This document shows positions 32,869 through 55,863 of a stretch of 64,000 bases of DNA, in pieces (within the stretch, counting starts at the first letter, position 1; each line of letters starts with the position of its first letter). The notes under the pieces were generated by a model, which worked only from the letters and a program-made list of their open reading frames with translations, was not told the DNA's origin and did no database searches. The stretch comes from Kutzneria chonburiensis (GTDB lineage Bacteria > Actinomycetota > Actinomycetes > Mycobacteriales > Pseudonocardiaceae): positions 9,001,501-9,065,500 of the forward strand of contig NZ_CP097263.1 in NCBI RefSeq assembly GCF_028622115.1, written 5' to 3'. Both the position numbers and the translations under genes were made by a program.

Positions 32869-34095
32869 ATGACGGTCTGTCGGCTGTGTGGCTCGACCAG
32901 CCTGGAGGGCGTGGTCGATCTCGGCGCCACCCCGCCGTGCGAGCGGTTCCTCACCGCGGAGCAGCTCGACGAGCCGGAAGTGACCTACCCGCTGCACCTG
33001 CGGGTGTGCACCCAGTGCTGGCTGGCCCAGATCCCGCCGCTGATCACTCCCGAGGACACCTTCACCGAGTACGCGTACTTCTCGTCCTACTCGACGTCCT
33101 GGGTGGAGCACGCCAGGACCTTCGTGGACGGCGCGGTCGAGCGGCTGGGGCTCAACGCCGACTCCTTCGTGGTCGAGGTGGCCAGCAACGACGGGTATCT
33201 GCTGCAACACGTGGTGTCGCGCTGGATCCGGTGTCTCGGCGTGGAACCCTCGGTGAACGTCGGCCAGGCGGCGCGGGACAAGGGCGTGCCGACGCTGACC
33301 GCCTTCCTCACCCCGGAGTCCGGTGCTCAGGTCCGTGATGAACACGGGCCGGCGAACCTGGTCGTGGCCAACAACGTCTACGCCCACATCCCGGACGTCA
33401 TCGGCTTCACCAAGGGACTGCGCAACCTGGTCGCCGACGACGGCTGGGTGTCCATCGAGGTGCAGCACCTGCTGACCCTGATGGAGCTCAACCAGTACGA
33501 CACCATCTACCACGAGCACTTCCAGTACTACACGGTGGCCTCCGCGCAGCGCGCGCTGGCCAGCGGCGGACTGTCCGTTGTGGACGTCGAGCTGGTGCCG
33601 ACGCACGGCGGCTCGATCCGGCTGTGGGCCCGGCCGACCGAGGTCGCCGGCGAGCCCAGCGCCCGTGTGCACGACGTGCTGGCCCGGGAGAAGGCGGCCG
33701 GTCTGCACGAGTTGTCCGGCTACACCGAATTCGCCGCCCGCGTGGCGAAGGTGCGCCGCGACCTGTTGGCCTTCCTGACCAAGGCCGCCGCCGAGGGCAA
33801 GACGGTCGTCGGCTACGGCGCGCCGGGCAAGGGCAACACGCTGCTCAACCACTGCGGCATCCGGCCCGACCTGCTGGCGTACACGGTGGACCGCAACCCG
33901 TACAAGCACGGGCGGTTCACGCCCGGCACCCGGATCCCGATCCTGCCGCCCGAGCGGATCGCCGAGGACCGCCCGGACTACGTGCTGGTGCTGCCCTGGA
34001 ACCTGCGCGACGAGCTGATCGAGCAGTTGGCCTACGTCCGCGAATGGGGCGGCAGCCTGGTCTTCCCCATCCCCGAACTCGAGGTGAAGTCGTGA
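32869..34095 (+). CDS. NDP-hexose C-methyltransferase (TylCIII/NovU-like)
   Basis: The 408-residue protein has the three parts of sugar C-methyltransferases. An N-terminal zinc domain has two Cys pairs (CRLCGS and CTQCWLAQIPP). The SAM domain has VVEVASNDGYLLQHV and NNVYAHIPDV. The C-terminal part has HYEHF-type YHEHFQYYTV, VPTHGGSIRLWA and VVGYGAPGKGNTLLNHCGI. Such enzymes add a methyl group to C3 of a 4-keto-6-deoxy sugar bound to a nucleotide. It opens the sugar operon and overlaps the next gene by GTGA. No 4,6-dehydratase lies in the window, so the precursor must come from elsewhere. Confidence 0.9.
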   Translation: MTVCRLCGSTSLEGVVDLGATPPCERFLTAEQLDEPEVTYPLHLRVCTQCWLAQIPPLITPEDTFTEYAYFSSYSTSWVEHARTFVDGAVERLGLNADSFVVEVASNDGYLLQHVVSRWIRCLGVEPSVNVGQAARDKGVPTLTAFLTPESGAQVRDEHGPANLVVANNVYAHIPDVIGFTKGLRNLVADDGWVSIEVQHLLTLMELNQYDTIYHEHFQYYTVASAQRALASGGLSVVDVELVPTHGGSIRLWARPTEVAGEPSARVHDVLAREKAAGLHELSGYTEFAARVAKVRRDLLAFLTKAAAEGKTVVGYGAPGKGNTLLNHCGIRPDLLAYTVDRNPYKHGRFTPGTRIPILPPERIAEDRPDYVLVLPWNLRDELIEQLAYVREWGGSLVFPIPELEVKS

Positions 34096-34868
34096 AGGTC
34101 GTCCTGTTCTGCGGCGGGCACGGGATGCGGATGCGCACCGGCACCGCGGCGGACGTGCCCAAGCCGATGCAGCTGGTCGGGCCGAGACCGCTGATCTGGC
34201 ACGTGATGCGCTACTACGCGCACTTCGGGCACACCGAGTTCGTCCTCTGCCTCGGCTACGGCGCCCACCACATCAAGGACTTCTTCCTCAACTACGAGGA
34301 GACCACGTCCAACGACTTCGTGCTCTCCCGCGGCAAGGTCGAGCTGCTGTCCACCGACATCTCCGACTGGAAGATCTCGTTCGTGCAGACCGGGATCGAG
34401 TCGCCGATCGGCGAGCGGCTGCGCCGGGTGCGGGATTTCCTCGACGGTGACGAGATGTTCCTGGCCAACTACGCCGACGTGCTGACCGACGCGCCGCTGC
34501 CGGAGATCGTCAGCCGGTTCGAGCAGTCCGACGCGGGCGCGTCGATGATGGTCGTGCCGCCGCCCGGCAGCTTCCACTGCGTCGAGCTCGGCGCGTCCGG
34601 CATGGTCTCGGGAATCACCCCGGTCAACGACATGCCGCTGTGGTCCAACGGCGGTTATTTCGTGCTGCGCCAGGAGGTTTTCGACCACATCCCGGAGGGC
34701 GGCGACCTGGTCGCCGACGGCTGTGTCGCGCTGGCCAAGCAGGGCCGGCTGATGGCCTACCCGCATCGCGGCTACTGGAAGCCGACCGACACCGTCAAGG
34801 AGCGGGTGGCGTTGGACGAGGCGTACTCGCGCGGCGAGCGGCCCTGGGCGTTGTGGGAAAGGGAATGA
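34092..34868 (+). CDS. RfbF-like sugar-1-phosphate nucleotidyltransferase
   Basis: The 258-residue protein resembles glucose-1-phosphate cytidylyltransferases: an altered nucleotide loop VVLFCGGHGMRMR (G-G-x-G-x-R-M), KPMQLVGPRPLIWHVMRYYA, FVLCLGYGAHHIKDFFLNY, and metal-binding Asp in FLANYADVLTD. It would activate a sugar phosphate with CTP (or another NTP) for the sugar pathway of this operon. The GTG start overlaps the previous stop. It lacks an acyltransferase or other extra domain. Confidence 0.85.
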   Translation: MKVVLFCGGHGMRMRTGTAADVPKPMQLVGPRPLIWHVMRYYAHFGHTEFVLCLGYGAHHIKDFFLNYEETTSNDFVLSRGKVELLSTDISDWKISFVQTGIESPIGERLRRVRDFLDGDEMFLANYADVLTDAPLPEIVSRFEQSDAGASMMVVPPPGSFHCVELGASGMVSGITPVNDMPLWSNGGYFVLRQEVFDHIPEGGDLVADGCVALAKQGRLMAYPHRGYWKPTDTVKERVALDEAYSRGERPWALWERE

Positions 34869-35515
34869 TCGCACTCTCGACCGGACGCCCGCGCCGGATC
34901 GCCCTGCTCGCCGCCCACTGTGACGACATCGCGATCGGCGCGGGCGGCAGTCTGCTGACGTTGTGCCGGGCCGATCCCGGCGTGCGGGTCGAGGCGTTGA
35001 TCCTGACCGGCGGCGGCACGCATCGTGAGGACGAGGAGCACGCGGCACTGGCGGCCTTCTGCCCGGACGCGGATCTCCGTGTGACGGTGGGAAAGCTGCC
35101 CGACGGCCGGCTGCCGGCGCACTGGGAAGAGGCCAAGACCGCGGTCGAGGAGCTGCGGTCGCGGATCGACCCGGAGCTGATCTTCGCGCCGAATCCCGGT
35201 GACGCGCACCAGGATCACCGTGGGCTGGCCGAGCTGGTGCCGCAGGTGTTCCGCGATCCGCTGATCCTGGGCTACGAGATCGTCAAGTGGGACGGGGACA
35301 TGGGCCGGCCGTCGGTGTACCAGCCGCTGGCCGATTCCGTCGCCGAGGACAAGGTCCGGCTGCTGCACGAGCACTACGCGTCGCAGCGGGACAAGCCCTG
35401 GTACGACCGGGAGGCCTTTCTCGGCCTCGCCCGGATCCGGGGCATCGAGTGCAAGGCCCGGTACGCGGAAGCGTTCCACTGCAACAAGTTGACTCTCGAC
35501 CTGGCTGGAGGATGA
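34865..35515 (+). CDS. PIG-L (GlcNAc deacetylase-like) family hydrolase
   Basis: The 216-residue protein has the zinc-binding motif [13 protein letters not shown], where the usual AHPDDE appears as AHCDDI with His and Asp-Asp kept. The second metal/catalytic motif is [11 protein letters not shown]. This family removes N-acetyl groups from sugars. The change of E to I and P to C is unusual but recurs in related operons, so activity is possible. It overlaps both neighbours by ATGA, placing it in the sugar pathway. Substrate unknown. Confidence 0.85.
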
Positions 35516-36546
35516 CCCGGATGCGCGTGCTGCTGACCGGACACCAGGGTTACCTGGGCACCGTGATGGCCCCGGTGCTGGCCGAGGCCGGGCACGAGGT
35601 GATCGGCCTCGACTCCGGCCTGTTCGCGGACTGCGTGCTCGGCCCGACGCCGGCCGATCCGACCGGTATCGCGGTCGACCTCCGTGACGTCACGGCCGAA
35701 CACCTGTCCACTGTGGACGCCGTGGTGCACATGGCGGCGCTGTCCAACGACCCGCTGGGGTCGTTGGCGCCGCAGCTGACGTACGACATCAACCACCACG
35801 CCTCGGTGCACCTGGCGCGGCTGGCCAAGGACGCCGGCGTCAAGCGTTACCTCTACGCCTCAACGTGTTCGGTGTACGGCGCATCCGGAGGTGACGGTCT
35901 CGTCGACGAGGACGCGCCGCTGCGACCGGTGACGCCGTACGCGGAGTCCAAGGTGCGCGTCGAGGACGACGTCGCCGAGCTGGCCGACGACGACTTCACG
36001 CCGGTGTACATGCGCAATGCCACCGCTTTCGGCTTCTCGCCGCGGCTGCGGGCCGACATCGTGCTGAACAACCTGGTCGGGCACGCGCACCTGACCGGCC
36101 AGGTCCGGGTGCTGTCCGACGGCACGCCGTGGCGGCCGCTCGTGCACGCCAAGGACATCGCGGCGGCCTTCGCCTGTGCGCTGGTCGCGCCCAAGGAAGC
36201 CGTGCACAACAAGGCGTTCAACGTCGGCACCGAGCTGAACAACCTGACCGTGGCCGAGATCGCCGGCGAGGTGATCGAGGCGGTGCCCGGCTCCAAGCTG
36301 GTGATCACCGGCGAGGCCGGCGCCGACCCGCGCTCCTACCGGGTCGACTTCGCCCGGATCCGGGCGGCCATGCCGGACTTCCACGCCGCGTGGTCGGTCA
36401 AGGACGGCGCGGTCGAGCTGTACGAGGCGTACCAGAAGTTCGGGCTGACCGAGCCCGACTTCAAGCAGCGCTTCACCCGGCTGGCCCGGCTGTCCGACCG
36501 CTCGGCCGAGGGCAGCCTCGGCCCGGACATGCGGCCGGTGCGATGA
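35512..36546 (+). CDS. NAD-dependent sugar epimerase/dehydratase (extended SDR)
   Basis: The 344-residue protein has NAD-binding [43 protein letters not shown] and the catalytic YAESK (about 150-154), so it should be active. The fold is that of nucleotide-sugar 4-epimerases and dehydratases, but the exact reaction cannot be read from the sequence. It overlaps PIG-L and DUF4910 genes. Within this operon it is the only candidate for the 4-keto or epimerising step. Confidence 0.88.
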
Positions 36547-37796
36547 AGGAGCTGGTCGAACGGCTGTACCCGGTGTGCCGCAGCATCACCGGGAACGGCC
36601 TGCGGCGGACCTTGGAGATCATCGGCGAGCAGGTGGAGCTGGCCGTCTCCGAGGTGCCGACCGGTACCCAGGTGCTGGACTGGACCGTGCCGCGGGAGTG
36701 GAACATCCGGGACGCCTGGGTGAAGGACGCCGGCGGGCGCAAGGTGATCGACTTCGCCGAGCACAACCTGCACATCGTCGGCTACAGCACGCCCGTGCAC
36801 GCCACGATGTCGTTGGCCGAGCTGCGCGAGCACCTGCACACGCTGCCCGAGCAGCCCGACCTGATCCCGTACCGGACCAGCTACTACAGCGAGACGTGGG
36901 GCTTCTGCCTGCGGCACGACGTGCTGGAGTCGTTGCCGGACGGGGACTACGAGGTCTTCATCGACTCCACTTTGGACGATGGCAGCCTGAGCTACGGCGA
37001 GCACGTGGTGCCGGGCGAGCTGACCGACGAGTTCATCGTGTCCTGCCACATCTGCCATCCCTCGCTGGCCAACGACAACATGGCCGGCGTCGCGGTGGCC
37101 GTCGAGCTGGCCACACGGCTGGCTGAGACGAAACCTCGGTATACCTACAGGTTCATCTTCGCGCCGGGCACGATCGGCGCGATCACCTGGCTGGCCCGCA
37201 ACTTCGATCGCGTCGACCGGGTGCGCGGCGGATTCACGCTGGCCTGCGCCGGCGACCGCGGTTCGCTGACGTACAAGCGAAGCCGGCGCGGCGACGCGCC
37301 CGTGGACCGGGCCATGGAGCACGTGCTGCGGGAGTCGGGCCGCGAGCACAAGGTGATCGACTTCTCGCCCTACGGCTACGACGAGCGGCAGTACTGCTCG
37401 CCCGGCTTCAACCTCGGCGTCGGCAGCCTGACCAGGACGCCGTACGCCGGCTACCCCGAGTACCACACCTCCGGCGACAACCCCGACTTCGTCACCGAGG
37501 AGTCGATGACCGACACGCTGGACACGCTGTGGGCGGCGGTGGGCGTGCTGGAGCGCGACCGCCGCTACGTGAACCTCAGCCCGTACGGCGAGCCGCAACT
37601 CGGCCGCCGCGGGCTGTACGAGTCGCTCGGCGGACGCAGTGACACGAAACAGGCCCAGATGGCGATGTTGTGGGTGCTCAACCTGTCCGACGGCGAGCAC
37701 AGCCTGCTGGACATCGCCCACCGAGCCGGAATTCCGTTCGCCACGGTCGCGGACGCCGCCGACGCCCTGCGGGGCGCCGGCCTGGTGAAGGAGTGA
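36543..37796 (+). CDS. DUF4910 aminopeptidase-like protein
   Basis: The 417-residue protein starts [20 protein letters not shown], the opening of DUF4910 proteins. It keeps an M28-like core with possible zinc ligands: [20 protein letters not shown], then [22 protein letters not shown]-terminal winged-helix-like tail ([18 protein letters not shown] ... [14 protein letters not shown]) ends the protein. Members recur in polysaccharide clusters, where a role in amide or ester chemistry on sugars has been supposed, not proved. It overlaps the epimerase gene by ATGA. Confidence 0.82.
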
Positions 37797-37804
37797 CACC
37801 GAAG

Positions 37805-38800
37805 ATGACCCAGTCCGTGACCACCGCCCCCACCCTCGGCTTACGCGTCGGCGACCTGGTCGAGGTGCGTGGCATCGAGGAGATCCTGGCCACCCTGGAC
37901 AGCCGGGGCGAGCTGGACAACCTGCCGTTCATGCCGGAGATGGTCCGGTTCTGCGGCCAGCGCATGACCGTGCACAAGGTGGCGCACAAGCTGTGCGACA
38001 CCATCAGCCGCAGCGGCATCCGTAAGATGGAGAACTCCGTCCACCTGGCCGGCGCCCGCTGCGACGGCTCCGCCCACGGCGGCTGCCAGACCGCGTGTTC
38101 CATGTACTGGAAGGAAGCCTGGCTCAAGAAGGTCGAGCCGGGGACTCCGCTGCCGGTGGCGGACAAGCCGTCCGGCCGGATCGACCTGCCGCTGCTGGTG
38201 GAGAACACCCACAAGGCCCCGGCGGCTGACGGCGGTGAGCGCTTCTCCTGCCAGGCCACCGAGTTGCTTCGGGCCGCGCCGACCTGCCTGCCGTTCCGCG
38301 ACCTCGGCCAGTACGTGGACGACGTGAAGTCCGGCAACGTCACCGCCTGGGCGTCGTTCAAGGCGTTCGGGGTGTCGCTGTTCAACCGCGTGCAGGACGT
38401 CAGCCGGCAGAAGCTGCCGCGCAAGCTGTGGTTCAAGGAAGGCCTGCGCTGGGGCTTCATCAAGGGCCAGCCCGGCAAGAAGACGCCGACCGCGCACCTG
38501 GACCTGCAACCCGGCGAACTGGTGCGGGTCAAGAGCAAGGAAGCCATCCTGGCCACGCTCAACGAGGACATGCTCAACCGGGGCATGGGCTTCGAGATCG
38601 AGATGGCCCGCTACTGCGGCCAGACCGCCCGGGTGCAGGCGCGCGTCGACAAGTGCATCGACGAGAAGACCGGCGAGCTGCTGACCATGAAGAGCCCGTG
38701 CATCGTGCTCGAGGACATCGTCTGCGCCGGGGTCTACAACTCGAGCTGCCCGCGCGAGTTCGTGCCGTTCTGGCGGGAGATCTGGCTTGAGCGAGTCTGA
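37805..38800 (+). CDS. Conserved protein of unknown function with two Cys/His-rich repeats
   Basis: The 331-residue soluble protein contains two versions of one repeat. Both begin GDLVEVRGIEEILATLD / GELVRVKSKEAILATLN and contain EM-x-RFCGQ / EMARYCGQ, ending in YWKEAWL / FWREIWLERV. Repeat 1 also has RCDGSAHGGCQTACSMYW, repeat 2 has CAGVYNSSCPREFVPFW; the Cys and His suggest a metal site. I recognise it as a type found in polysaccharide operons but know no function. It starts 8 bases after DUF4910 and overlaps the flippase gene by 14 bases, so it belongs to the operon. Confidence 0.8.
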   Translation: MTQSVTTAPTLGLRVGDLVEVRGIEEILATLDSRGELDNLPFMPEMVRFCGQRMTVHKVAHKLCDTISRSGIRKMENSVHLAGARCDGSAHGGCQTACSMYWKEAWLKKVEPGTPLPVADKPSGRIDLPLLVENTHKAPAADGGERFSCQATELLRAAPTCLPFRDLGQYVDDVKSGNVTAWASFKAFGVSLFNRVQDVSRQKLPRKLWFKEGLRWGFIKGQPGKKTPTAHLDLQPGELVRVKSKEAILATLNEDMLNRGMGFEIEMARYCGQTARVQARVDKCIDEKTGELLTMKSPCIVLEDIVCAGVYNSSCPREFVPFWREIWLERV

Positions 38801-40253
38801 GTCACCACCGGAGGCCGTCGGCACGATCGGTCGCAAGGCCGGTCGGGGCCTGCGCTGGAGCCTGGTCGGCAACCTGGGCACCAAGCTCGGCTCGTTCACC
38901 ATCGGGCTGATCCTGGCCCGGCTGCTGGTGCCGGCCGACTTCGGCATCTTCGCCGTCGCCGCGGCGGCGACCGCCTTCGTCATGCACGTCAACGACATCG
39001 GCGTGATCGCCGCCGGCGTGCAGTGGCGCGGCAAGCTGGAGGACATGGCCCCGACGGGCACGTCGATCGCCATTGCCTTCAGCAGCCTGGTGTACGCGGC
39101 GTTCTTCTTCGGCGCGCCGGCCTTCGCCACGCTGTCCGGCACGCCCGACGCAGCGCCGGTGGTGCGGCTGCTGACGCTCGTGATCATCGTGGACGGCATC
39201 ACCTCCTGCCGCGCCGCCGCGTTGATGCGGCGGTTCGAGCAGGACCGGCTGACCAAGGCGACGATGATCGGCACGGCGGTCAACTTCGTGGTCGCGGTGC
39301 CGCTGGCGTTCGCCGGGGCCGGTGCGTACAGCTTCGCCGGAGGGCAGGTGGCCAGCTCGATCGTCACCGGGATCCTGGTGTGGCGCATGGGCGCGTTGCC
39401 GTTCAAGCTGGCGTTCGACCGCGAGATCGCGGTGAAGCTGTTCAAGTTCGGCATTCCGCTGGCGGCCAGCCTCGGCGTGGAGTCGGTGCTGCTCAACGCC
39501 GACTACGTGATCGTCGGCAACGTGCTCGGCGCGACCGCGCTGGGCTGGTATCTGTTGGCGTTCAACGTCTCCAACTGGGTGCCGGGCCTGGTCGGCACGG
39601 CCGTGCGTTATGTCTCCATCCCGAGTTTCTCCCGGCTGGCCGAGCAGGAACCCGAGGCGTTGGCCGCCGGCGTGCGCCGATCGGTGCCGGTGCTGGTGTC
39701 GGCGATCCTGCCGGTGGCCGTGCTGATGGCGATCCTGGCCCCGTACATGGTGGTCTTCCTGTACGGCGATCAGTGGGGTCCGTCGGCCGCGGTGCTGCGG
39801 TTCCTGACCGTGCTGATGGTGGTGCGGATGCTGACGTCGCTGGCGTTCGACATCCTGACCTCGTTGGGCGCCACCAGGTCCACGGTGTGGCTGAACGCCG
39901 GCTGGGCCGTCGTGCTGATCCCGGCGCTGTGGTTCGGCACCCACCTGGACAACATCCGTGGCGCCGCCATCGCCCACAGCATCGTCGCCGTCGCGGTGGC
40001 GCTGCCACTGGCGATCATCGCTCTGCACCGGGCCGGCGTTCCGTTGTTGCCGGTGCTGCCCGCGCTGATCCGGCCGGCCGTCGGGGCCGCGCTGTGCGCC
40101 GCCGTGACGTTCGTGGTGGTGCGGTTGGTCAGCGGCGGCGCGTTCCTGCACCTGTTCGTGCCCGGTGTGGTCGGGATGCTGGTGTTCGTGCTGACGGTCG
40201 TGCCGGTCGAGCAGTTCCGGCAGTTACGGACGCGGCTGGTCCGCGCGCGCTGA
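38787..40253 (+). CDS. Wzx-type polysaccharide flippase (PST/MOP family)
   Basis: The 488-residue protein has about 14 predicted membrane helices and the MOP flippase opening GRGLRWSLVGNLGTKLGSFT IGLILARLLVPADFGIFAVA (residues about 18-58). It should carry the undecaprenyl-linked repeat unit across the membrane. The start is a TTG at 38787 inside the end of the previous gene (14-base overlap), indicating translational coupling. The charged tail ends in QLRTRLVRAR. Confidence 0.9.
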   Translation: MSESESPPEAVGTIGRKAGRGLRWSLVGNLGTKLGSFTIGLILARLLVPADFGIFAVAAAATAFVMHVNDIGVIAAGVQWRGKLEDMAPTGTSIAIAFSSLVYAAFFFGAPAFATLSGTPDAAPVVRLLTLVIIVDGITSCRAAALMRRFEQDRLTKATMIGTAVNFVVAVPLAFAGAGAYSFAGGQVASSIVTGILVWRMGALPFKLAFDREIAVKLFKFGIPLAASLGVESVLLNADYVIVGNVLGATALGWYLLAFNVSNWVPGLVGTAVRYVSIPSFSRLAEQEPEALAAGVRRSVPVLVSAILPVAVLMAILAPYMVVFLYGDQWGPSAAVLRFLTVLMVVRMLTSLAFDILTSLGATRSTVWLNAGWAVVLIPALWFGTHLDNIRGAAIAHSIVAVAVALPLAIIALHRAGVPLLPVLPALIRPAVGAALCAAVTFVVVRLVSGGAFLHLFVPGVVGMLVFVLTVVPVEQFRQLRTRLVRAR

Positions 40254-40266
40254 GTGAGGAGTGGTC

Positions 40267-41145
40267 ATGCCGCTGGTGTCCGTGGGGCTGCCGGTCTACA
40301 ACGGGGTCGAACGCATCGAGGCCGTCGTGCGATCGGTGCTCGGCCAGGACCACGCCGACCTGGAGTTGGTGATCAGCGACAACGCGTCCACCGACGGCAC
40401 CGAGGAGCTGTGCCGGTCGCTGGCCGCCGAGGACTCGCGTGTGGTCTACCACCGCAATCCGCTGAACGTGGGGCTGCTCAACAACTTCGTCGGGGCACTA
40501 CGGCTGGCCCGCGGCGAGTTCTTCCGCTGGGTCGGCGACGACGACTGGCTGGCGCCCAACTGCGTGTCCCGCGGCCTTGACGCGTTCTATGACGACCCGC
40601 GGCTGATCCTGGTCACCAGCCAGGTCGACTACACCGGGCCCGACGGCGTCACCTCGACGATGCCCTATACCAGTACGGCGTTCCGGTCTTCGGACCCTGT
40701 TGTCCGGCTGACCGAGATGCTGCGGCTGCTCAACACCAGCCACCTGATGATCGACCCGCTGTACGGCATGGTGCGGCGGGAGCCGGTGGTGGCCATCGAG
40801 CGGCGGAACATGCTGCGCGAGGACGAGGTCTACGCGACCAAGCTGGCGCTGGCCGGGCCGTGGGGGCATGTGCCCGAGGTGTTGGCCAAGCGGCACTGGA
40901 AGCACGAGACGCCGGCCATCCTGGCCCGGCGGCTGGACGTGCCGTCCTGGCAGGCCCACTTCGCGACCACCTTGCAGTGCCGGGAAATGGTCCGCTGGGT
41001 GCAGGCTTCCGCCGAGCTGTCCGAGGAGCAGCGCCGCCGGGCCGTGCTGGAGATCGGCAAGATGTACGCCCGCCGCCAGCGAATCGTCGCCACCCGCCGC
41101 GCCCGCAAACTCGTCCGCATCGCCCGCGACCTGGTACCCCGTTAA
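40267..41145 (+). CDS. Family 2 glycosyltransferase
   Basis: The 292-residue GT-A enzyme has LVSVGLPVYNGVERIEAVVR, the nucleotide-binding ISDNASTDGTEEL, and the metal-binding acidic motif FFRWVGDDDWLAPNCV. The C-terminal helices are Arg-rich and may bind the membrane surface. AGGAG at 40257-40261 selects the ATG at 40267 over a GTG at 40261. It is last in the sugar operon and followed by a strong terminator. It probably adds the unusual sugar to the repeat unit (inference). Confidence 0.87.
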   Translation: MPLVSVGLPVYNGVERIEAVVRSVLGQDHADLELVISDNASTDGTEELCRSLAAEDSRVVYHRNPLNVGLLNNFVGALRLARGEFFRWVGDDDWLAPNCVSRGLDAFYDDPRLILVTSQVDYTGPDGVTSTMPYTSTAFRSSDPVVRLTEMLRLLNTSHLMIDPLYGMVRREPVVAIERRNMLREDEVYATKLALAGPWGHVPEVLAKRHWKHETPAILARRLDVPSWQAHFATTLQCREMVRWVQASAELSEEQRRRAVLEIGKMYARRQRIVATRRARKLVRIARDLVPR

Positions 41146-41366: not shown

Positions 41367-42500
41367 CTAGTCGGCGGCCGGGACCGGTTCCGGGGTCTTG
41401 GGGGCCATGGCCGCCTTGAGGGCGGCCCAGCTGCGGTGCTTGACGAACGGGATCTCGAAGATGGCCGCGAAGCCCCGGGCGAAGGCGACCGTCACCGGCA
41501 CGCAGATGAGCAGCATCACGCCGAACGCGCCGAGCCCGGTGCCGAACAGTGGGCCGACGACGAAGGTGTAGGCCACCACGACGATCGGCGCGTGGGTCAG
41601 ATACAGGCTGTAGGAGAACGACCCCAGACTGCGCACGGGCCGGGTGTCGAGCAGACGCACCAACGGCTTCGGCTGACGGGTGGCCACGGCGACGAGCAAC
41701 AGCGCGACCGCCGGGCCGGCGGCGAGGTCGACCCAGATGAAGTTCTTGGTCGTCCAGACGGGGCCGGCGATGGCTATCAACGCGATCACCGGCACCATGG
41801 CGGCGAACGACCACCACTGCCAGTGCACGCGCTGCCACTTTGCGCTTGCCTGAACGATTCCGGCGGCCGCCACACCCGCCGCGAACAGGGCGGCGAACTG
41901 CGGCGTGAACCGCATCAGAGCGTCCACAACGGACACGTGCGGCGCCAGCAGGCCGATCAGCACCACGATTCCCGTTGTCACGCCCAGCATCACCGTCGCG
42001 CCGGCCCGGCGCAGGGCCAGCAGCATGAGCGGGAACACGAAGTACAGCTGGGCCTCGACGGCAATGGACCAGAAAGCGCCGTTCGGGCTGGGTGAGCCGA
42101 ACACGTCCTGCAACAGGAATCCGTACAGCAGAACGGACTTTCCGGTCGGCACGCCCTCGCCGGGCTGCGGCGCCAGCGTCCAGGCGACGAGGAGGCTGAA
42201 CAACAGCGCCGGCCAGTACGGCGGCAGGATGCGCCAGGCCCGTCGGCGGGCGAACTTGGCCAGGCTGTCCAGCCGCCAGCCGTTGCGGGCCGGCGACACG
42301 GCCAGCGAGAAACCGGACAGCACGATGAACACCACCACGGCAAAGTGCCCGTACAGCAGGAAACCCGTCCAAGCGGGCGCGTGCGTCTCGGGGAAGCCGG
42401 GAAACGCCATCAGGTAGCTGTGGTGCAGCACCACGAACAGCGCCGCCAGTCCCCGGATGCCGTCCAGCCCGATCAGCCGCGGGCGGGCAGGTGTGTCCAT
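41367..42500 (-). CDS. Membrane acyltransferase (acyltransferase-3 family)
   Basis: The 377-residue protein has about ten membrane helices. It opens RLIGLDGIRGLAALFVVLHH, whose H-H after the helix is the catalytic signature of acyltransferase-3 proteins. VFIVLSGF and FWSIAVEAQLYFVFPLMLLA (containing the conserved W-S-x-x-V-E) follow. These enzymes O-acetylate or otherwise acylate surface glycans using a cytoplasmic donor. The ATG at 42500 is chosen; the open frame continues to 42551 without a good start. It diverges from the chain-length genes. Confidence 0.88.
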   Translation of the reverse strand: MDTPARPRLIGLDGIRGLAALFVVLHHSYLMAFPGFPETHAPAWTGFLLYGHFAVVVFIVLSGFSLAVSPARNGWRLDSLAKFARRRAWRILPPYWPALLFSLLVAWTLAPQPGEGVPTGKSVLLYGFLLQDVFGSPSPNGAFWSIAVEAQLYFVFPLMLLALRRAGATVMLGVTTGIVVLIGLLAPHVSVVDALMRFTPQFAALFAAGVAAAGIVQASAKWQRVHWQWWSFAAMVPVIALIAIAGPVWTTKNFIWVDLAAGPAVALLLVAVATRQPKPLVRLLDTRPVRSLGSFSYSLYLTHAPIVVVAYTFVVGPLFGTGLGAFGVMLLICVPVTVAFARGFAAIFEIPFVKHRSWAALKAAMAPKTPEPVPAAD

Positions 42501-42659
42501 GCCCCACACATCGCGTCCGCGCCCGCCCGCGTAACCACACCCTGGGAGCAACCGCCGTTAGGCCGAACGGCCCAGTCTGTAACGACAAATCCCAGGTCGT
42601 CGATTGTTCGGATGCTGGCGGTCGCCGTGACCGGCGCTCACGGAACGGGGCATGGGCCT

Positions 42660-43466
42660 ATGGAATTCTGGAAGTCCATGTGGGTTCTGATGCGCCGTCG
42701 CTACGTCGGCCCGCCGGTCGTGCTACTGGCGGTGCTGGCCGCCGCCGTCACGTTCATCCTGGTGCCGACCCACTACGTGTCACGGTCCTTCATGGTGCTG
42801 GCCACCCCGGCCGGCGGTGGCACGCTCTCGCTGGACCCGAGCAAGCCCACCGGCCTGACCAACCCGCTGCTGAACTTCAACGACGGCCTCAAGACCACCA
42901 CCGGCATCCTGATCCAGGCCATGAACACGCCTCAGGAACTGGCCGACCTCGGCGCCGGGCCGCACAGCTCGACCACGGTCGTGATCAACGACGGCACCAG
43001 CAGTCCCGATCTGCTCAGCAGCAGCCAGAACGGCCCGTTCGTGTACGTGGAGGGCGAAAGCACCACGCCCGAGGCGGCCAGCGAGGTCGTGAAGAAGGCT
43101 CAGGACAAGCTCCGCTCCGAGCTCATCGACCGGCAGAAGGCGCTGAACGCGCCGCCCATCACCTACCTGTCGATGGTCGACGTGATCTCGCCGACCACGC
43201 CCGTCACCAAGATGACGCTGAAACTTCAGCTCACCGGTGTGGCCCTGCTCGCGGTGCTCCTGCTCGGTCTCGGCGGCGCGTACGCCCGTGACCGGATGCG
43301 GGAGTCGCGCAAGATGCGGGCGCCGGACACGGTGGCCGAGCTCACTCGCTCTCCCGGCGAGCTCGACCCGCCGACCGTGCGGATCGCCCGGGCCAAGGAC
43401 AAAGCGGTGCTGACCGTGCGCGGCACGCTGACCGACGGTCCCGACGTTCCACATGAGACGGTGTAG
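42660..43466 (+). CDS. Wzz/chain-length-determinant-like membrane protein, copy 1
   Basis: The 268-residue protein has an N-terminal membrane helix (GPPVVLLAVLAAAVTFILVP), an external domain and a second helix (LTGVALLAVLLLGLGGAYA), the Wzz topology. It ends in a short basic cytoplasmic tail with no Walker motif or Tyr cluster, so there is no kinase domain. It is a clear paralogue of the next gene: NPLLNFNDGLKTTTGILIQA and RQKALNAPPITY are shared nearly word for word. It should set the chain length of the surface polymer together with the polymerase. Confidence 0.82.
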   Translation: MEFWKSMWVLMRRRYVGPPVVLLAVLAAAVTFILVPTHYVSRSFMVLATPAGGGTLSLDPSKPTGLTNPLLNFNDGLKTTTGILIQAMNTPQELADLGAGPHSSTTVVINDGTSSPDLLSSSQNGPFVYVEGESTTPEAASEVVKKAQDKLRSELIDRQKALNAPPITYLSMVDVISPTTPVTKMTLKLQLTGVALLAVLLLGLGGAYARDRMRESRKMRAPDTVAELTRSPGELDPPTVRIARAKDKAVLTVRGTLTDGPDVPHETV

Positions 43467-43472
43467 CCGCAC

Positions 43473-44177
43473 ATGGACTTCTGGCAGACGCTGCTCGTCC
43501 TGTTCCGGCGCTGGTACGTGGCCGTGCCGGCGTTCCTGGTCGCGGTCGGCGCCGCGGCCGGGATATACATGACGATCCCCGTCACGTACACCTCCACCGC
43601 CGTGCTGGTGCTCGACCAGCCGCTGGCCGGCGGCAGCCTGCCGGCGCTGCCGACCGACAAGGGCACCGTCACCAATCCTTTGCTCAACTTCGACCAGGGC
43701 CTGAACAACGCCGCCGCCATCGTCATCCAGGCGTTGAACACGCCGGAGGTCGCGCTGGCTCTCGGTGCGTCGCCGACCGGTGACCCGTCGTACAAGGTGA
43801 CCAACGGCAGCACCAACCAGCAGGAGCAGATCGTCGCCGGGCCGTTCGTGTTCGTGGAGGGCGACAGCCGCAATGCCCAGGCGGCGCAGGACATCGCCAA
43901 GCGCTGCGTCGAGCGGGTCAAGCAGGAGCTGGCCAGCCGGCAGAAGGCGCTGAACGCGCCGGAGCAGACGTACATCACCGTCGACGTCGCCGTGCAGCCG
44001 ACGACCCCGGTTGCCCAGCGCGGCAACAAGACCCGGGCCGCTGCCGTGGCCGTCGTGATGGGGGTCGTGGCCGCTCTGTGGGCCGCGTATTCGTTCGAGA
44101 GCTACTACCAGGCACGGCGGCGCAAGGGCGGTTCCGCGCTCGAGCAGTCGCTCGTGCCCGCGTCGAGCGGCGCCTGA
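43473..44177 (+). CDS. Wzz/chain-length-determinant-like membrane protein, copy 2
   Basis: The 234-residue protein has the same two-helix topology as its neighbour: VPAFLVAVGAAAGIYMTIPV near the start and AAAVAVVMGVVAALWAAYSF near the end. Paralogous blocks are NPLLNFDQGLNNAAAIVIQA and RQKALNAPEQTY. It also lacks a kinase domain. Only six bases separate it from copy 1, and one base from the polymerase gene, so the three are one operon. The pair may form a mixed oligomer. Confidence 0.82.
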   Translation: MDFWQTLLVLFRRWYVAVPAFLVAVGAAAGIYMTIPVTYTSTAVLVLDQPLAGGSLPALPTDKGTVTNPLLNFDQGLNNAAAIVIQALNTPEVALALGASPTGDPSYKVTNGSTNQQEQIVAGPFVFVEGDSRNAQAAQDIAKRCVERVKQELASRQKALNAPEQTYITVDVAVQPTTPVAQRGNKTRAAAVAVVMGVVAALWAAYSFESYYQARRRKGGSALEQSLVPASSGA

Positions 44178-44178
44178 C

Positions 44179-45591
44179 ATGTCCACGGATTTCCTGCCCG
44201 GGAAGAAGACGCGGACGATGGCCGACGGGGCCACGCTCGTCTGCATCTTCGTCACCGTGCTGATGCTCATTCCCGCTCGGGCCGTCTTCAAAGGCATTCC
44301 GCTGTCGTTGACGCCGGGCAATGTCGCCGCGCTGTTCGCCGGCATCTGCTGGGTCTGCGCCCAGCTCACGTTGACCCTCGGCATGGCCAAAGGGCGAACT
44401 CCGGTCCGTACCGGTATTTTCGTCTATGCCATCGCCGTGTTCTTCTCCTACGGCTACGCCAATTTCGGTCCGCTGCCCCAGGACGAGGTCAAGCTGTCCG
44501 ACCACGCCATCGTGTTGGTCGCCGGCAACTGCGCCGTGGCCTTGATGATGAACGACGGCGTGCGCAGCCTGCTCCGCCTCGACCGGGTGCTGAAGGCCGC
44601 TGTCGTCTGCGGCACCGGTGTGGCTCTCGTCGGCTGTTGTCAGTTCATTCTCAAACTCGACCTCACCCAGTACATGGTGTTGCCCGGTTTGCGTTTCACC
44701 TCCGACGACGGTTTCGTCGAGACCCGGGAGGCCTTGGCCCGGGTTGCCGGCACCACCGGCCATCCCATCGAGTTCGGCGTGCTGTGCGCCATGTTGCTGC
44801 CGCTCGCCGCCCATTTCGCCTTTCAGGCCAAGGGGCGTGGCGAGCCCGTGCTGCGGTGGTGGGTCTGCTGCGGCATCATCGCCGCCGGTCTGATGTTCTC
44901 CATCTCCCGCTCCGCCGTGCTCGGCATCGGCGCCGCCGGTCTCGTGCTTTTCCTCGGCTGGCCCGCGAAGCGCCGTTGGTACACCCTGCTCGTCGGCCTC
45001 GTTTTCCTCGGCATCATGAAGGTGACCGTGCCGAGCCTGTTGGGCGCGTTGTACAACCTGTTCGCCAACATCGGCAACGACAGCAGCATTTCCCACCGTA
45101 CCTACGCTTCCGCCGTCGCCGCCAAGCAGATCAGCCTGCATCCCCTGTTCGGGCACGGCCCCGGCACCTGGTACGCCGGCAAGCACGAGGTTTTCGACAA
45201 CCAGTACATCCTGTCCACCGTCGAGACCGGTTTCGTCGGCGTGGCCGCTTTCGCCAGCATCTTCTTGTGCGCCTTCTATTCCGCGCTACGGGCCCGCTAT
45301 CTGAGCAAGGACCCCGGCGCCCGCGATCTGGCCTTGACCTTGTGCGCCAGCCTGATCGCACCGTTGATCGGGTCCGCCACCTTCGACCTGACCGCCTTCG
45401 CCACCGTCACCGGGTTGACCTTCATCCTCATCGGCGCCACCGGATCACTGCTGCGGACCGCCAAGCAGCTCGCGCCGCACGAGGACCAGTTCGGTGTCCT
45501 GTACTGGCTCCGGTACCGCTGGGCGTGGCTGCGTGATGTGCTGGTGCGCCGGCGACGGCACGAGGCAGTGGAAGAGCCCAGCCTCAGTTAG
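44179..45591 (+). CDS. O-antigen ligase/polymerase (Wzy-like) membrane protein
   Basis: The 470-residue protein has about 11 membrane helices and one long external loop with HRTYASAVAAKQISLHPLFG HGPGTWYAGKHEVFDNQYIL (residues about 300-340), the Wzy_C-type signature with conserved Arg, His and Gly. It should polymerise or ligate lipid-linked repeat units outside the membrane. It is coupled to the two chain-length proteins. A 23-bp hairpin follows the stop. Confidence 0.87.
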   Translation: MSTDFLPGKKTRTMADGATLVCIFVTVLMLIPARAVFKGIPLSLTPGNVAALFAGICWVCAQLTLTLGMAKGRTPVRTGIFVYAIAVFFSYGYANFGPLPQDEVKLSDHAIVLVAGNCAVALMMNDGVRSLLRLDRVLKAAVVCGTGVALVGCCQFILKLDLTQYMVLPGLRFTSDDGFVETREALARVAGTTGHPIEFGVLCAMLLPLAAHFAFQAKGRGEPVLRWWVCCGIIAAGLMFSISRSAVLGIGAAGLVLFLGWPAKRRWYTLLVGLVFLGIMKVTVPSLLGALYNLFANIGNDSSISHRTYASAVAAKQISLHPLFGHGPGTWYAGKHEVFDNQYILSTVETGFVGVAAFASIFLCAFYSALRARYLSKDPGARDLALTLCASLIAPLIGSATFDLTAFATVTGLTFILIGATGSLLRTAKQLAPHEDQFGVLYWLRYRWAWLRDVLVRRRRHEAVEEPSLS

Positions 45592-45678: not shown

Positions 45679-46680
45679 TCAGCCGTGGCAGGCCAGGGGG
45701 CCGACCGTGGACGTGACGTTGTAGTTGCCGTCGATGGTGACCAAGCTGTTGTCGGACCACTGGATGGTGCCGCAGTCGGACTCGACCGGCCCGTAGATCC
45801 AGGACTTGTCGACCATGCGGTTGCCGCGCACGACAACGGTTCCGCCGGCGCCCTTGACCTGGATCGAGTAGGTGCCGCCGGCGACCAGGTTGTTGGTGAC
45901 CGAGACGGTGTTGGTCAGGTCGGTGAGGAAGATGGGGGCGGTGATGTCCTTGGCGTCGCGCTGATCCAGGGTGTTGTGGTCGAGCACGAGATTGTGCCCG
46001 CCCTGGTAGCTCTGGATGCCGTCGGAATGGTCCCCGGGATTGGAGCACAGGTGCACGTACGAGTCATGGATCTCGATGTCGTTGCCGGAATCCCGGAAAC
46101 CGTCGCCATGGTTGCGGATGAGCACCCCACGGGCGTAGAAGCTGCCCTCGCCGACACCGGGCTGGGAGTCGCAGCCGGAGGCGGGGCCGACGGTGGAATC
46201 GAGAATGGTGTACGAGTAGTCGACATTCTCGTACTCGTCGGTGACGAAACCGTCGATCTGGCTGTTGCGCACGGTCACGTTGTGCGCGGTGATGAGCAGG
46301 TTGCCGGGAATGTGCATGCCGTCGAGCACGGCCCCGTCCTGGCTCACGCGATAGGCGTCGCCGGAATTCATGGTGACGGAGGAAAGCTTGGTGCCGGGCG
46401 GAACTCCGGTGCACGCGGGCGTGGGGAAGGCGGCGCAGCGGCCGCCGCCGGAACGGCCGGGCGGTGGGGGAGCGGGCTTGGACGAGCTCGCCGGCTTCGA
46501 CGAAGAAGTGGCGGAGGTCGAGGAACTGGACGACGTCGTGCTGGAAGCAGCCGTGGTGCTGCTGACGGTCGTGTCGCTCGGGGTGGTGCTCACCGGATCG
46601 GCCACGGGTGTCGACCCGGTGCAGGCTGTCAGCAACATCGCCGCCACCCCGACAACGGCGATGGGTAAGGCATGTCTCAT
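45679..46680 (-). CDS. Right-handed beta-helix lipoprotein
   Basis: The 333-residue protein has a lipobox AMLLTACTGS near residue 20, a Ser/Thr/Pro-rich linker (about 30-80), and a parallel beta-helix of short Asn- and Asp-capped turns (LITAHNVTVRNSQIDGFVTD, HDSYVHLCSNPGDHSDGIQS, LVLDHNTLDQRDAKDITAPI). The fold is common in polysaccharide lyases, hydrolases and epimerases. Its ATG overlaps the stop of the RmlC-like gene, so it is made with the polysaccharide enzymes and may trim or bind the polymer at the cell surface (inference). Confidence 0.82.
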   Translation of the reverse strand: MRHALPIAVVGVAAMLLTACTGSTPVADPVSTTPSDTTVSSTTAASSTTSSSSSTSATSSSKPASSSKPAPPPPGRSGGGRCAAFPTPACTGVPPGTKLSSVTMNSGDAYRVSQDGAVLDGMHIPGNLLITAHNVTVRNSQIDGFVTDEYENVDYSYTILDSTVGPASGCDSQPGVGEGSFYARGVLIRNHGDGFRDSGNDIEIHDSYVHLCSNPGDHSDGIQSYQGGHNLVLDHNTLDQRDAKDITAPIFLTDLTNTVSVTNNLVAGGTYSIQVKGAGGTVVVRGNRMVDKSWIYGPVESDCGTIQWSDNSLVTIDGNYNVTSTVGPLACHG

Positions 46681-47225
46681 GGTGATCGCTCCAAAGTGGT
46701 CAGCAGCTGCGCCCACGAACCGGCGCCGGCATCGCGCGGGCTGACGACCGAAACCGGTTGCGGCCAGTCGATGGCCAGGTCGGTGTCGTCGTAGCGGACG
46801 GCGATGTCCTCGGCGGGGTCGTGCTCGCGGTCGATCCGATAGCAGACGTCGGCCAGGTCGGTCAGCGCCTGGAAGCCGTGCAGCAGGCCCGGCGGAACAT
46901 ATAGCGTCGCGAAGGTCTCGTCGTCGAGCCGGAACGACTCGATTCGCCCGAACGTGGGCGAGGAAGGCCGGGCGTCGACGAGCACGTCGTGCACGGCCCC
47001 ACGGGCGCAGCGCACGAGCTTGGCCTCACCACGGCCACCGCGGCCGTGCAGGCCGCGAACGGTGCCCTGACGAGACCGGGACTGGCTGTCCTGAAGGAAA
47101 TCGCCGACACCGTGCTTCTCGCCGATGGCCAGGTCGTAGGTCCGGGTGAACAGGCCCCGGTCGTCCCGGTGCGGCGTGGGCACGAACAGCAGCACGCCCG
47201 CGATACCGGCCTCTTCCACACGCAT
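46677..47225 (-). CDS. dTDP-4-dehydrorhamnose 3,5-epimerase-like (RmlC family) protein
   Basis: The 182-residue cupin follows RmlC closely: DDRGLFTRTYD, RQGTVRGLHGRGGRGEAKLV (with the catalytic His of the GLH motif), GAVHDVLVDARPSSPTFGRI, LYVPPGLLHGFQALTDLADV, and the YRIDREHDPAEDIAVRYDD region that in RmlC carries the catalytic Tyr. The usual F-Q after GLH is G-R, so the substrate may differ from rhamnose precursors. A TTG at 47240 overlapping the upstream stop is the alternative start. No rmlA, rmlB or rmlD is in the window. Confidence 0.85.
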   Translation of the reverse strand: MRVEEAGIAGVLLFVPTPHRDDRGLFTRTYDLAIGEKHGVGDFLQDSQSRSRQGTVRGLHGRGGRGEAKLVRCARGAVHDVLVDARPSSPTFGRIESFRLDDETFATLYVPPGLLHGFQALTDLADVCYRIDREHDPAEDIAVRYDDTDLAIDWPQPVSVVSPRDAGAGSWAQLLTTLERSP

Positions 47226-47236
47226 TCCAGGTCCCG

Positions 47237-48052
47237 TCAACGGGTGCTCGCGTCGGCCGCCCAGTCCACCTCGGCCTTACGGCGCGCGAGGAACTTGTCG
47301 ACCACGAGCACGGTGAGATAGCACGCGGCGTCCACAAGGGACACCGAACGCCGGGTGATGAGCGAACCGAGGGAGCTCAACCGGAGCCGCCCCTCCGTCG
47401 GAGGCCGGCCAAGGGCGGCCAGCTCCCGGTTGCCCTGCCGGACCCGCTTGCGGCGGCGCAGATGGGCCCGCACGGTCCGGGCCGGCCGCACCACGGACTC
47501 GGCCGACGGCACGACGACCCGCTCCAGCGGCGTGAACGACCGGTGCACCCAGCCGTCGTCGGAGATGACGTCGGGCAGCGGGAACGCCTTGGCGTGACCG
47601 TCCTTGGACAGCACGTACACGCCGACGCCGGCCAGCACGCGGCTCGGCGCAATCAACCGATCGTGTACCCGGTGCACCCGCCGAGCGATGCGGCTGGCGC
47701 CGGAAAGGTCCCACCGCGGCACCGGGGCGCAGGCCAGCACGCCGGGCCGTTGCAGGGCGGACACGAGCTCCCGCACGGACTGCGTGCTCAGCTCGATGTC
47801 GGCGTCCAGGTACACCCGCGGGAAGTCACGGCAGGTGTCGTCGCCGAGACGCAGGGCATGCGCCTTGCCGCCATAAGGGGTCTCCACCACGCGCACGCCG
47901 TACTGCCGGGCCACGGCGGCGGTGTCGTCCGTGCAGGCGTTGGGCACGACGACAACGTCGAACTCGTCCTCGTCGGCGTCCGCGAGAAGCGTGCTCAGGC
48001 AGCGCCCGAGCACGGCCTCCTCGTTGTGGGCGGGGATGACAACACTGGTCAT
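47237..48052 (-). CDS. Family 2 glycosyltransferase
   Basis: The 271-residue GT-A enzyme has SVVIPAHNEEAVLGRCLSTL, VVVPNACTDDTAAVA and the metal-binding motif VYLDADIELS. A later SDDGWVHRSF is the acidic acceptor motif. The tail carries a hydrophobic helix (VDAACYLTVLVVDKFLA). It is part of the minus-strand polysaccharide operon, 51 bases after the GT4 gene. Confidence 0.87.
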   Translation of the reverse strand: MTSVVIPAHNEEAVLGRCLSTLLADADEDEFDVVVVPNACTDDTAAVARQYGVRVVETPYGGKAHALRLGDDTCRDFPRVYLDADIELSTQSVRELVSALQRPGVLACAPVPRWDLSGASRIARRVHRVHDRLIAPSRVLAGVGVYVLSKDGHAKAFPLPDVISDDGWVHRSFTPLERVVVPSAESVVRPARTVRAHLRRRKRVRQGNRELAALGRPPTEGRLRLSSLGSLITRRSVSLVDAACYLTVLVVDKFLARRKAEVDWAADASTR

Positions 48053-48103
48053 GGTGGTTCCACGGTGGTCACCGAAGCGGCGTCAGTCAAGCCGGGGGTC
48101 GGC

Positions 48104-50603: not shown

Positions 50604-50668
50604 CTGCGATGCCTCCATCGCGCTCGAACGTGCGCGCGCCCCTTTGATCGGGGGAGGCTGCCGACCCG

Positions 50669-52632: not shown

Positions 52633-52684
52633 GTGCACGTCATCGTGCCCAGCTCAGCCCGTGTTACCGTTGCGGCCCAACGGG

Positions 52685-53353: not shown

Positions 53354-53420
53354 GACCGTCCCCACCTCCAGCGCGACTGTCCTGGTTCGAGGGGAATATC
53401 GGACGTAACGCCTGAATTCG

Positions 53421-54332: not shown

Positions 54333-54333
54333 C

Positions 54334-55827: not shown

Positions 55828-55863
55828 CCTCGGGGTCCCCCTCGGTTGCCCTCTCATCGACAT

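Follow-up and report, generated by a model that had tools for sequence, protein, structure and literature searches.

A recurrent gene cassette for a probably C-methylated surface sugar in Kutzneria chonburiensis

Sugar 3-C-methyltransferases of the TylC3/TcaB9 type serve the deoxythymidine diphosphate (dTDP)-deoxysugars of antibiotics, and 4,6-dehydratases acting on nucleoside diphosphate (NDP)-sugars are marked by an Asp-Glu pair after the catalytic Thr (STDEVYG type). The Cj1427–Cj1430–Cj1428 heptose pathway of the Campylobacter jejuni capsule relies on C4 oxidation without dehydration: the biochemically characterised C4-dehydrogenase Cj1427 oxidises guanosine diphosphate (GDP)-heptose, its bound NADH being recycled with alpha-ketoglutarate, and the free 4-keto product passes to a C3/C5-epimerase and then to a C4-reductase (PMC10680097). 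Here, we focus on an operon of eight genes in Kutzneria chonburiensis, whose genome is a single contig of 10.41 Mb (assembly GCF_028622115.1), and on the 64,000-nucleotide stretch of that genome in which it lies (NZ_CP097263.1, positions 9,001,501 to 9,065,500), termed the window. The operon encodes a C-methyltransferase (CMT), a sugar-1-phosphate nucleotidyltransferase (NT), a PIG-L hydrolase, a short-chain dehydrogenase/reductase (SDR), a DUF4910 protein, a protein without family assignment (UNK, starting at 37805), a Wzx-type flippase and a GT2 glycosyltransferase.

A link between DUF4910 and surface sugars is, in general terms, not new. In 2014, DUF4910 was connected with a nucleotidyltransferase, a methylase and an epimerase for a modified surface carbohydrate, and acyl transfer or amide hydrolysis was proposed for it (PMC4000134). 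The neighbourhoods of CA_C2195 (structure 3k9t) described there resemble the window in that a protein of the same family accompanies a nucleotidyltransferase, an epimerase/dehydratase and an S-adenosylmethionine (SAM) methylase. They differ in having a NeuB-type synthase, ATP-grasp and acyl-carrier genes and the motif FAPETIG, whereas the window has CMT, NT, PIG-L, RmlC and FAPGTIG; the main text of that paper does not use the terms PIG-L, LmbE, deacetylase, cupin or dTDP. The DUF4910 relative Cj1295 is needed for the N-linked di-O-methylglyceroyl group on pseudaminic acid, for which amide cleavage was proposed (PMC3068675), and DUF4910 is mentioned in a table row elsewhere (PMC10832277). Within the open-licence literature, nothing on these gene groups was found beyond PMC4000134 and PMC3068675, and no report combining PIG-L, a cytidylyltransferase and a C-methyltransferase.

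A cassette that recurs across phyla

The initial annotation had read eight consecutive, mostly overlapping genes at 32869–41145 as a pathway for a probably C-methylated surface sugar. All eight frames are open and follow one another in the order described, five of the seven junctions overlap (spacings of −4, −4, −4, −4, +8, −14 and +13 nt), and a Pfam scan upholds the family labels. A C-methylated surface sugar remains the best reading. The gene set is real and broader than first described. We propose, at a probability of roughly 55%, that five operon genes (CMT, NT, PIG-L, SDR and DUF4910) and an RmlC-like epimerase encoded downstream make up a six-enzyme cassette for a single C-methylated nucleotide sugar, and that this cassette is linked with an assembly module of UNK, Wzx and GT2, followed by Wzz/Wzy.

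A gene-neighbourhood search with UNK had been suggested as a check, and a scan of a genome collection with this protein found recurrent synteny. It yielded 47 loci, the closest relatives of UNK (91–94% identity) being in Kutzneria, and all presence counts given here rest on fixed score thresholds applied to stretches of limited length, some of them ended by contig ends. All eight genes are present in 25 of the 47 loci, with identical order and strand in 25 of 25, and the hosts of these complete loci are Kutzneria, Lentzea and genera of the Streptosporangiales. Nine of the 22 incomplete loci (Rhodococcus, Aldersonia, Mycolicibacterium and Nocardia) carry UNK with GT2 and/or Wzx and lack DUF4910; CMT, NT, PIG-L and SDR all went undetected in the stretches examined for seven of these, while PIG-L is present in L020, and L014 has all four and an RmlC-like gene. 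GT2 is the sole gene missing from L035, and L044 is interrupted by a contig end. Among the other 11, several on short contigs, UNK stands alone in seven and is accompanied by GT2 in L030, by NT, PIG-L and SDR in L037, by NT and PIG-L in L045, and by CMT, NT, PIG-L and SDR in L047. The UNK family is rare, occurring in 3 of 396 sampled genomes of the phylum, source genome included.

The core of CMT, NT, PIG-L, SDR and DUF4910 recurs beyond this operon in Streptomyces, rhizobia and Acidobacteria. Streptomyces-type stretches keep the order CMT-NT-PIG-L-SDR-DUF4910 without UNK, and plasmids of Mesorhizobium, Shinella, Agrobacterium, Neorhizobium and Qingshengfaniella, together with a Roseateles record, have the order SDR-DUF4910-RmlC (opposite strand)-CMT-NT-PIG-L. 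The samples comprised 398 proteobacterial genomes, from the phylum to which a Burkholderiales genome belongs, of which 29 match DUF4910, and 199 acidobacterial genomes (the phylum of an Acidobacterium genome), 43 with a match, 14 of them strong; eight DUF4910 matches below 80 bits in one scan, one of 19 bits in the Burkholderiales phylum (the 30 others being kept) and all below 60 bits in the Acidobacterium phylum (the 14 stronger being kept) were left out. The survey of annotated records covers 17 of 42 records, and another record listing 60 of 170. Of 97 DUF4910 loci, CMT and SDR are both over threshold in 54, four carry CMT but not SDR, and CMT is missing from 39. NT accompanies CMT and SDR in 50 of the 54, PIG-L in 48, a class-III aminotransferase in 13 and a NeuB/PseI synthase in none; in the 39 CMT-less loci NT, PIG-L and SDR are each at zero over threshold, and a synthase is found in eight. 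Because 27 of the 54 were retrieved through UNK, they are not independent of it; the other 27 contain NT in 23, PIG-L in 21, cassette-clade RmlC in 24 and the aminotransferase in 13.

The initial annotation had overlooked the RmlC-like gene. In a tree of RmlC-like proteins, the window protein lies inside a cassette clade of 48 tips (support 0.88; actinobacterial part of 25 tips, 0.99), while the RmlC genes that precede the operon in Streptosporangiales fall in the rhamnose clade (21 tips, support 1.0); this placement assigns the gene to the cassette. The score against the rhamnose RmlC model TIGR01221 (138.6, cut-off 155.75) decides little by itself, since the second RmlC-like gene of the genome does not reach the cut-off either (151.8). 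Cassette-clade RmlC is present in at least 42 of the 54 loci with CMT and SDR, a lower bound that misses at least L026 with its 296-bit RmlC match, against 0 of 39 CMT-less DUF4910 loci; 14 of the 55 loci with an RmlC-like gene have two or more copies. RmlC sits between DUF4910 and CMT in six annotated proteobacterial records and 5.5 kb downstream of the operon in Kutzneria, where the interval also holds recurrent genes for an acyltransferase, for Wzy, for two Wzz-like proteins and for one that looks, by inspection, like a beta-helix protein. The extent first given for the operon thus stands for the eight genes, and fails as a boundary of the recurrent set, which continues through the acyltransferase, both Wzz-like proteins and Wzy to the RmlC-like epimerase.

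CMT matches TylC3/TcaB9 sugar 3-C-methyltransferases over its full length and three domains, with Methyltransf_13 (Zn-binding, 80.8 bits), Methyltransf_23 (SAM, 59.7) and Methyltransf_14 (C-terminal, 222.6) all over cut-off; its best solved relatives are the D-mycarose 3-C-methyltransferase 4rv9 (E 3e-84) and TcaB9, from which it differs in lying in a polysaccharide locus without a dehydratase. NT is nearest to the RfbF structure 1tzf (E 4e-46) and scores 192.5 bits against the RfbF model TIGR02623, 108 under the cut-off of 300.25. The AHCDDI motif of PIG-L, which the initial annotation had called altered, is present, and the metal motifs HxDD and HxxH and their metal residues are kept. Among UNK-retrieved loci AHCDD is conserved in 32 of 33 rows and HQDH in 33 of 33, whereas many other cassettes have Ser or Ala in third place (AHSDD, AHADD); this is therefore a variable position of a PIG-L subfamily, and a decayed active site is ruled out.

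Two side observations concern other proteins near these enzymes. A 299-residue protein without Pfam match is encoded just upstream of CMT at L023:4157-5053(+), and its cluster is found in 10 loci, none of them the three from Kutzneria. A DRL_cat oxidoreductase (PF21135, about 150 bits) accompanies NT, PIG-L and RmlC at L037:4647-5969(+) and L045:4434-6137(+), where CMT is undetected; we take DRL to be a DXR-like reductoisomerase, which could presumably give a methyl branch another way.

Source of the 4-keto sugar

The initial annotation had remarked that the window holds no 4,6-dehydratase and that SDR may do more than epimerise. No match in the window exceeds the cut-off of the cytidine diphosphate (CDP)-glucose or the dTDP-glucose 4,6-dehydratase model, which confirms the first point with both cut-offs. 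In the whole source genome, no CDP-glucose 4,6-dehydratase exceeds the cut-off, and the RmlB cut-off is passed by a single match (445 bits over 365), at 6.43 Mb, about 2.6 Mb away from the operon. By sequence, the nearest solved structure to SDR is Cj1427 (6vo6, E 1.6e-28; next 3.8e-18). In a fold search with the AlphaFold2 model (mean predicted local distance difference test, pLDDT, 85), Cj1427 (6vo6/6vo8) takes ranks 1–4 (template-modelling, TM, score 0.74–0.75; identity 25–28%), followed closely by GalE-type epimerases, TunA and DesIV. An activity beyond epimerisation is the best explanation for SDR.

SDR as a disguised 4,6-dehydratase is ruled out by its motif, STCSVYG in place of STDEVYG. 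YxxxK is kept in 31 of 31 SDR rows and STCSVYG in 29, SSCSTYG and SSCSLYG occurring once each, and the dehydratase Asp-Glu is missing from all 31; STDEVY occurs in 14 of 23 dehydratase-cluster members from these loci. A separate alignment with SDR (P0004) holds 28 SDRs, drawn only from loci of the UNK scan.

A C4-oxidising SDR paired with an RmlC-fold epimerase would parallel the Cj1427 system and would account for a pathway that does without a 4,6-dehydratase. The shared elements would be a dehydration-free oxidation of C4 and, after it, a C3/C5 epimerase; the C. jejuni pathway differs in using GDP-heptose and a separate C4-reductase, and C-methylation is not mentioned in the accessible text (PMC10680097). 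The RmlC-like protein of the window moreover resembles RmlC and NovW more closely than it does the heptose epimerases. In CDP-sugar pathways of the RfbF-RfbG kind, RfbF is the nearest solved relative of NT, and two loci join RfbF-type to RfbG-type genes; NT nevertheless lies below the RfbF cut-off and the source genome has no RfbG over cut-off. One of the two, L045, has the order NT-PIG-L-dehydratase-RmlC, with a CDP-glucose 4,6-dehydratase at 436 bits over 278; the other, L202, combines a partial CDP-glucose 4,6-dehydratase frame (145.6 bits, below 278) with a true RfbF (459 bits), DUF4910 and CMT. As the dehydratase keeps similar company in both, the maker of the 4-keto sugar seems to be swappable.

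It is unlikely, in our estimate, that SDR is instead an ordinary C4-epimerase and that CMT uses dTDP-4-keto-6-deoxyglucose made by RmlA and RmlB, to give a 6-deoxy-3-C-methyl sugar of the mycarose or evalose kind. This alternative draws on the true RmlB of the genome, on the rml-like genes upstream in Streptosporangiales loci (RmlC by tree; RmlA, RmlB and RmlD by inspection), on the antibiotic-sugar 3-C-methyltransferases that are CMT's characterised relatives and on the closeness of GalE-type epimerases in fold. Against it, the cassette carries its own RfbF-like NT and not RmlA, its RmlC paralogue is distinct from that of the upstream rml-like genes, and no member of the 4,6-dehydratase cluster is found in four Streptomyces-type (L072–L074 and L077) and three Kutzneria stretches. 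On all these findings C4 oxidation by SDR is the better reading, which falls short of proof.

From the genes, families, recurrence, clades and motifs observed we infer the reactions, the nucleotide, the methyl position and the product of a six-enzyme route. NT would activate a hexose- or hexosamine-1-phosphate, most likely with cytidine triphosphate (CTP), and SDR, acting like Cj1427, would oxidise C4 with the 6-hydroxyl kept to give a 4-keto NDP-hexose. The RmlC-like enzyme would epimerise beside the ketone and CMT would methylate the sugar in the manner of TylC3/TcaB9, probably at C3. Reduction of the ketone might follow, for which SDR could serve once more, using the NADH it has kept, or else amination where a class-III aminotransferase is present, while PIG-L and DUF4910 may adjust N-acyl groups. 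GT2 and Wzx would move the sugar into a surface polysaccharide with UNK as a cytosolic, probably metal-binding helper. More tentatively, this may amount to a multi-phylum route to branched sugars that dispenses with a 4,6-dehydratase through a Cj1427-like SDR, a dedicated RmlC paralogue and TylC3-type methylation, with PIG-L and a non-peptidase, single-zinc DUF4910 protein finishing the sugar and a metal-binding SH3-like family aiding flipping.

Several findings weigh against the six-enzyme proposal. SDR is just about 27% identical to Cj1427, and the scores of GalE-type epimerases and DesIV come close to that of Cj1427. No separate C4-reductase was noticed in the cassette, although no search was aimed at one, and a glutamate-1-semialdehyde (GSA)-type aminotransferase was not found in the window. 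NT fails the cytidylyltransferase cut-off, so that a nucleotide other than CTP may be used. Cassette-clade RmlC was not counted in 12 of the 54 loci with CMT and SDR, in some because the stretch ends early. Membership of the cassette varies, since L037 and L045 keep NT and PIG-L with CMT undetected and L014 and L047 have CMT, NT, PIG-L and SDR without DUF4910. Finally, a 4-keto-6-deoxy precursor could come from elsewhere, given the upstream rml-like genes of Streptosporangiales and the genome's own RmlB.

DUF4910, UNK and polysaccharide assembly

The DUF4910 protein of the window is closely related to CA_C2195 (3k9t; E 8e-147, 493 bits) and matches PF16254 over cut-off together with DUF2172 and HTH_47. 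All 66 rows of the cassette subtype retain the zinc residues of 3k9t (His, Asp and His) and the Pro, and 58 of them the Ser. The Ser and Pro of the window protein align with Ser191 and Pro225 of 3k9t, which stand in place of M28 peptidase residues (PMC4000134), and the catalytic Asp and Glu of peptidase M28 are not present. Directly after that Pro, 3k9t has Glu and the window protein has Gly (residue 209). This position follows context: Gly, Ala or Ser occurs in 54 of 54 loci with CMT and SDR and in all four with CMT only, Glu in eight of eight synthase loci, and the remaining 31 loci have 24 Glu and seven Gly. The Glu presumably corresponds to the second-site zinc ligand of M28 enzymes, and the zinc-binding Asp is often Asn in Glu-type proteins (NNE in 24 of 32). 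The nonulosonate-linked subtype combines the Glu of FxPETIG with a NeuB/PseI gene; the window protein lacks the Glu, and no NeuB/PseI match was found in the window.

Judged from sequence and gene context, DUF4910 has two context-defined subtypes. In a tree of 98 DUF4910 tips with those columns masked, Glu changes once, at a node with support 0.175, so the Gly/Glu split marks a subtype, and the Glu-to-Gly change was rejected as repeated, independent evidence. A strict rule linking residue and context is contradicted by seven DUF4910 proteins (L232–L238) with Gly outside any cassette. Their motif is PGGIG or PGAIG, with no cassette or synthase gene in the examined stretch, and a neighbour in L232 resembles, by inspection, adenylosuccinate synthetase.

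N-acyl chemistry is the likeliest role for DUF4910, held here tentatively. A different starting material would be compatible with the six-enzyme cassette. If synthesis started from NDP-N-acetylglucosamine (GlcNAc), PIG-L would remove the acetyl group and DUF4910 would swap or remove an acyl group, giving a C-methylated amino sugar; we regard this as a serious contender at somewhat less than even odds. NT and PIG-L are direct neighbours in the cassettes examined, as well as in L037 and L045, the relative Cj1295 is linked to an N-acyl group on pseudaminic acid (PMC3068675), and 13 of the 54 cassettes carry the class-III aminotransferase (for example L121:14248-15570(+), by NCBIfam a glutamate-1-semialdehyde aminomutase at 714 bits over 486), which may aminate a keto sugar. 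The missing GSA-type gene of the window counts against an amino sugar, as does the cassette DUF4910 without the Glu of the nonulosonate-linked proteins. NT-PIG-L also lies beside a CDP-glucose 4,6-dehydratase in L045, and the usual substrate of that enzyme is nitrogen-free.

The initial annotation had further concluded that the unknown proteins all act in one pathway, which does not hold for UNK: its occurrence with GT2 or Wzx and without DUF4910 in nine loci, and in Bosea, where it is next to a flippase and the cassette is not there, separates it from the sugar pathway. An enzymatic role of UNK in that pathway is disfavoured, as it occurs without the cassette, and the cassette lacks it in 24 of the 27 loci with CMT and SDR not retrieved through it (present in three). 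Its immediate neighbour is a flippase in four cases (the window, Mesorhizobium, Bosea and L200), whereas in rhodococci and L231 it is GT2. We take it to be a cytosolic accessory of polysaccharide assembly, at about even odds. The cassette and the assembly module might even be two independent systems that sit side by side and merely share transcription. UNK occurs with GT2 and/or Wzx and no cassette in seven actinobacterial loci and Bosea, and the Streptomyces cassette lacks UNK; yet cassette and UNK, with Wzx or GT2, come together again in a Mesorhizobium plasmid, L200 and L231, and genes overlap in the window, which leaves this the least probable of the alternatives considered.

UNK (P0006) has no match over Pfam or NCBIfam cut-offs, none in the PDB by sequence (E up to 1) or profile, and a single match of 0.042 in PHROGs. 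Its halves align with each other at 99.9% probability, revealing a tandem repeat, and its AlphaFold2 model (pLDDT 90, predicted TM score 0.86) gives weak, local best matches in Foldseek to nitrile hydratase beta and Mind bomb, whose common part is read, from the model, as an SH3-like barrel. The Mind bomb SH3 repeat (PF18346) matches 18 of 44 family members at E up to 1 (best 7.2e-5), UNK itself not among them. Descent from nitrile hydratase beta was rejected, the Foldseek E of 6.6e-4 coming with TM about 0.2–0.3 and an hhalign probability of 0.6. Cys 50, 64, 86, 94, 98, 149, 271, 307 and 315 are each kept in 52–54 of 55 aligned proteins, and such conservation at nine positions points to metal binding; the alignment of UNK from its own scan includes 43 of the 47 loci. 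We assign UNK to a new family, Cys-rich and built of tandem SH3-like repeats, whose members are also found alongside GT2 or Wzx where the cassette is missing. Relatives in L081, L082 and L128 share their stretch with heavy-metal P-type ATPase genes (annotated in L128, by inspection in L081 and L082), neighbours fitting a metal-binding role of these relatives.

Gene layout and significance

The features are listed in table 1. A scan for promoters and terminators in the window found nothing exceeding chance. A second polysaccharide region (46677–57270) contains GT2, GT4, a UDP-glucose/GDP-mannose dehydrogenase family protein, a polysaccharide deacetylase and an SDR, with an initiating sugar transferase at 54334–55863(-).

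Table 1. Operon genes and recurrent neighbours in the window.
Feature	Position	Strand	Start codon, matches and remarks
CMT (P0001), TylC3-type sugar C-methyltransferase	32869-34095	+	ATG; Pfam Methyltransf_13/_23/_14
NT (P0002), RfbF-like sugar-1-phosphate nucleotidyltransferase	34092-34868	+	GTG; Pfam NTP_transferase
PIG-L (GlcNAc-PI de-N-acetylase-like) hydrolase, AHCDD motif	34865-35515	+	ATG; PF02585 52.9 bits, cut-off 28.2
Extended SDR (P0004), proposed NDP-hexose C4 oxidase/oxidoreductase	35512-36546	+	ATG; Pfam Epimerase
DUF4910/DUF2172/HTH_47 protein (P0005), cassette subtype FAPGTIG	36543-37796	+	ATG; PF16254 364.6 bits
UNK (P0006), tandem SH3-like, Cys-rich	37805-38800	+	ATG; no Pfam match
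Wzx-type flippase (P0007)	38787-40253	+	TTG; Polysacc_synt_3, PF13440 190 bits
GT2 glycosyltransferase (P0008)	40267-41145	+	ATG; Glycos_transf_2, PF00535 88.5 bits
Membrane acyltransferase (Acyl_transf_3), recurrent neighbour	41367-42509	-	Homologue >150 bits in 17 loci
Wzz-like protein, recurrent neighbour	42612-43466	+	Label by inspection, no Pfam match; 23 loci
Second Wzz-like protein, recurrent neighbour	43473-44177	+	Label by inspection; 22 loci
Wzy/O-antigen ligase family protein, recurrent neighbour	44179-45591	+	PF04932 49 bits; 22 loci
RmlC-like 4-keto-sugar epimerase, sixth cassette member	46677-47225	-	PF00908 170 bits

Within the open-licence literature, the RmlC member, the dehydration-free reading of SDR, the context subtypes of DUF4910 and the UNK family appear to be new. 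If the proposal is true, annotation would be corrected in two places, as the RmlC of the annotated cassettes examined is now called rfbC, dTDP-4-dehydrorhamnose 3,5-epimerase, and several cassette nucleotidyltransferases are called glucose-1-phosphate cytidylyltransferase. The proposal would then describe a general, testable pathway to non-deoxy C-methyl sugars of bacterial surface polysaccharides, and the orphan DUF4910 family would gain two context-defined subtypes and a chemistry testable on a defined substrate. It would likewise tie a new protein family to polysaccharide assembly in Actinomycetota, Pseudomonadota and Acidobacteria.

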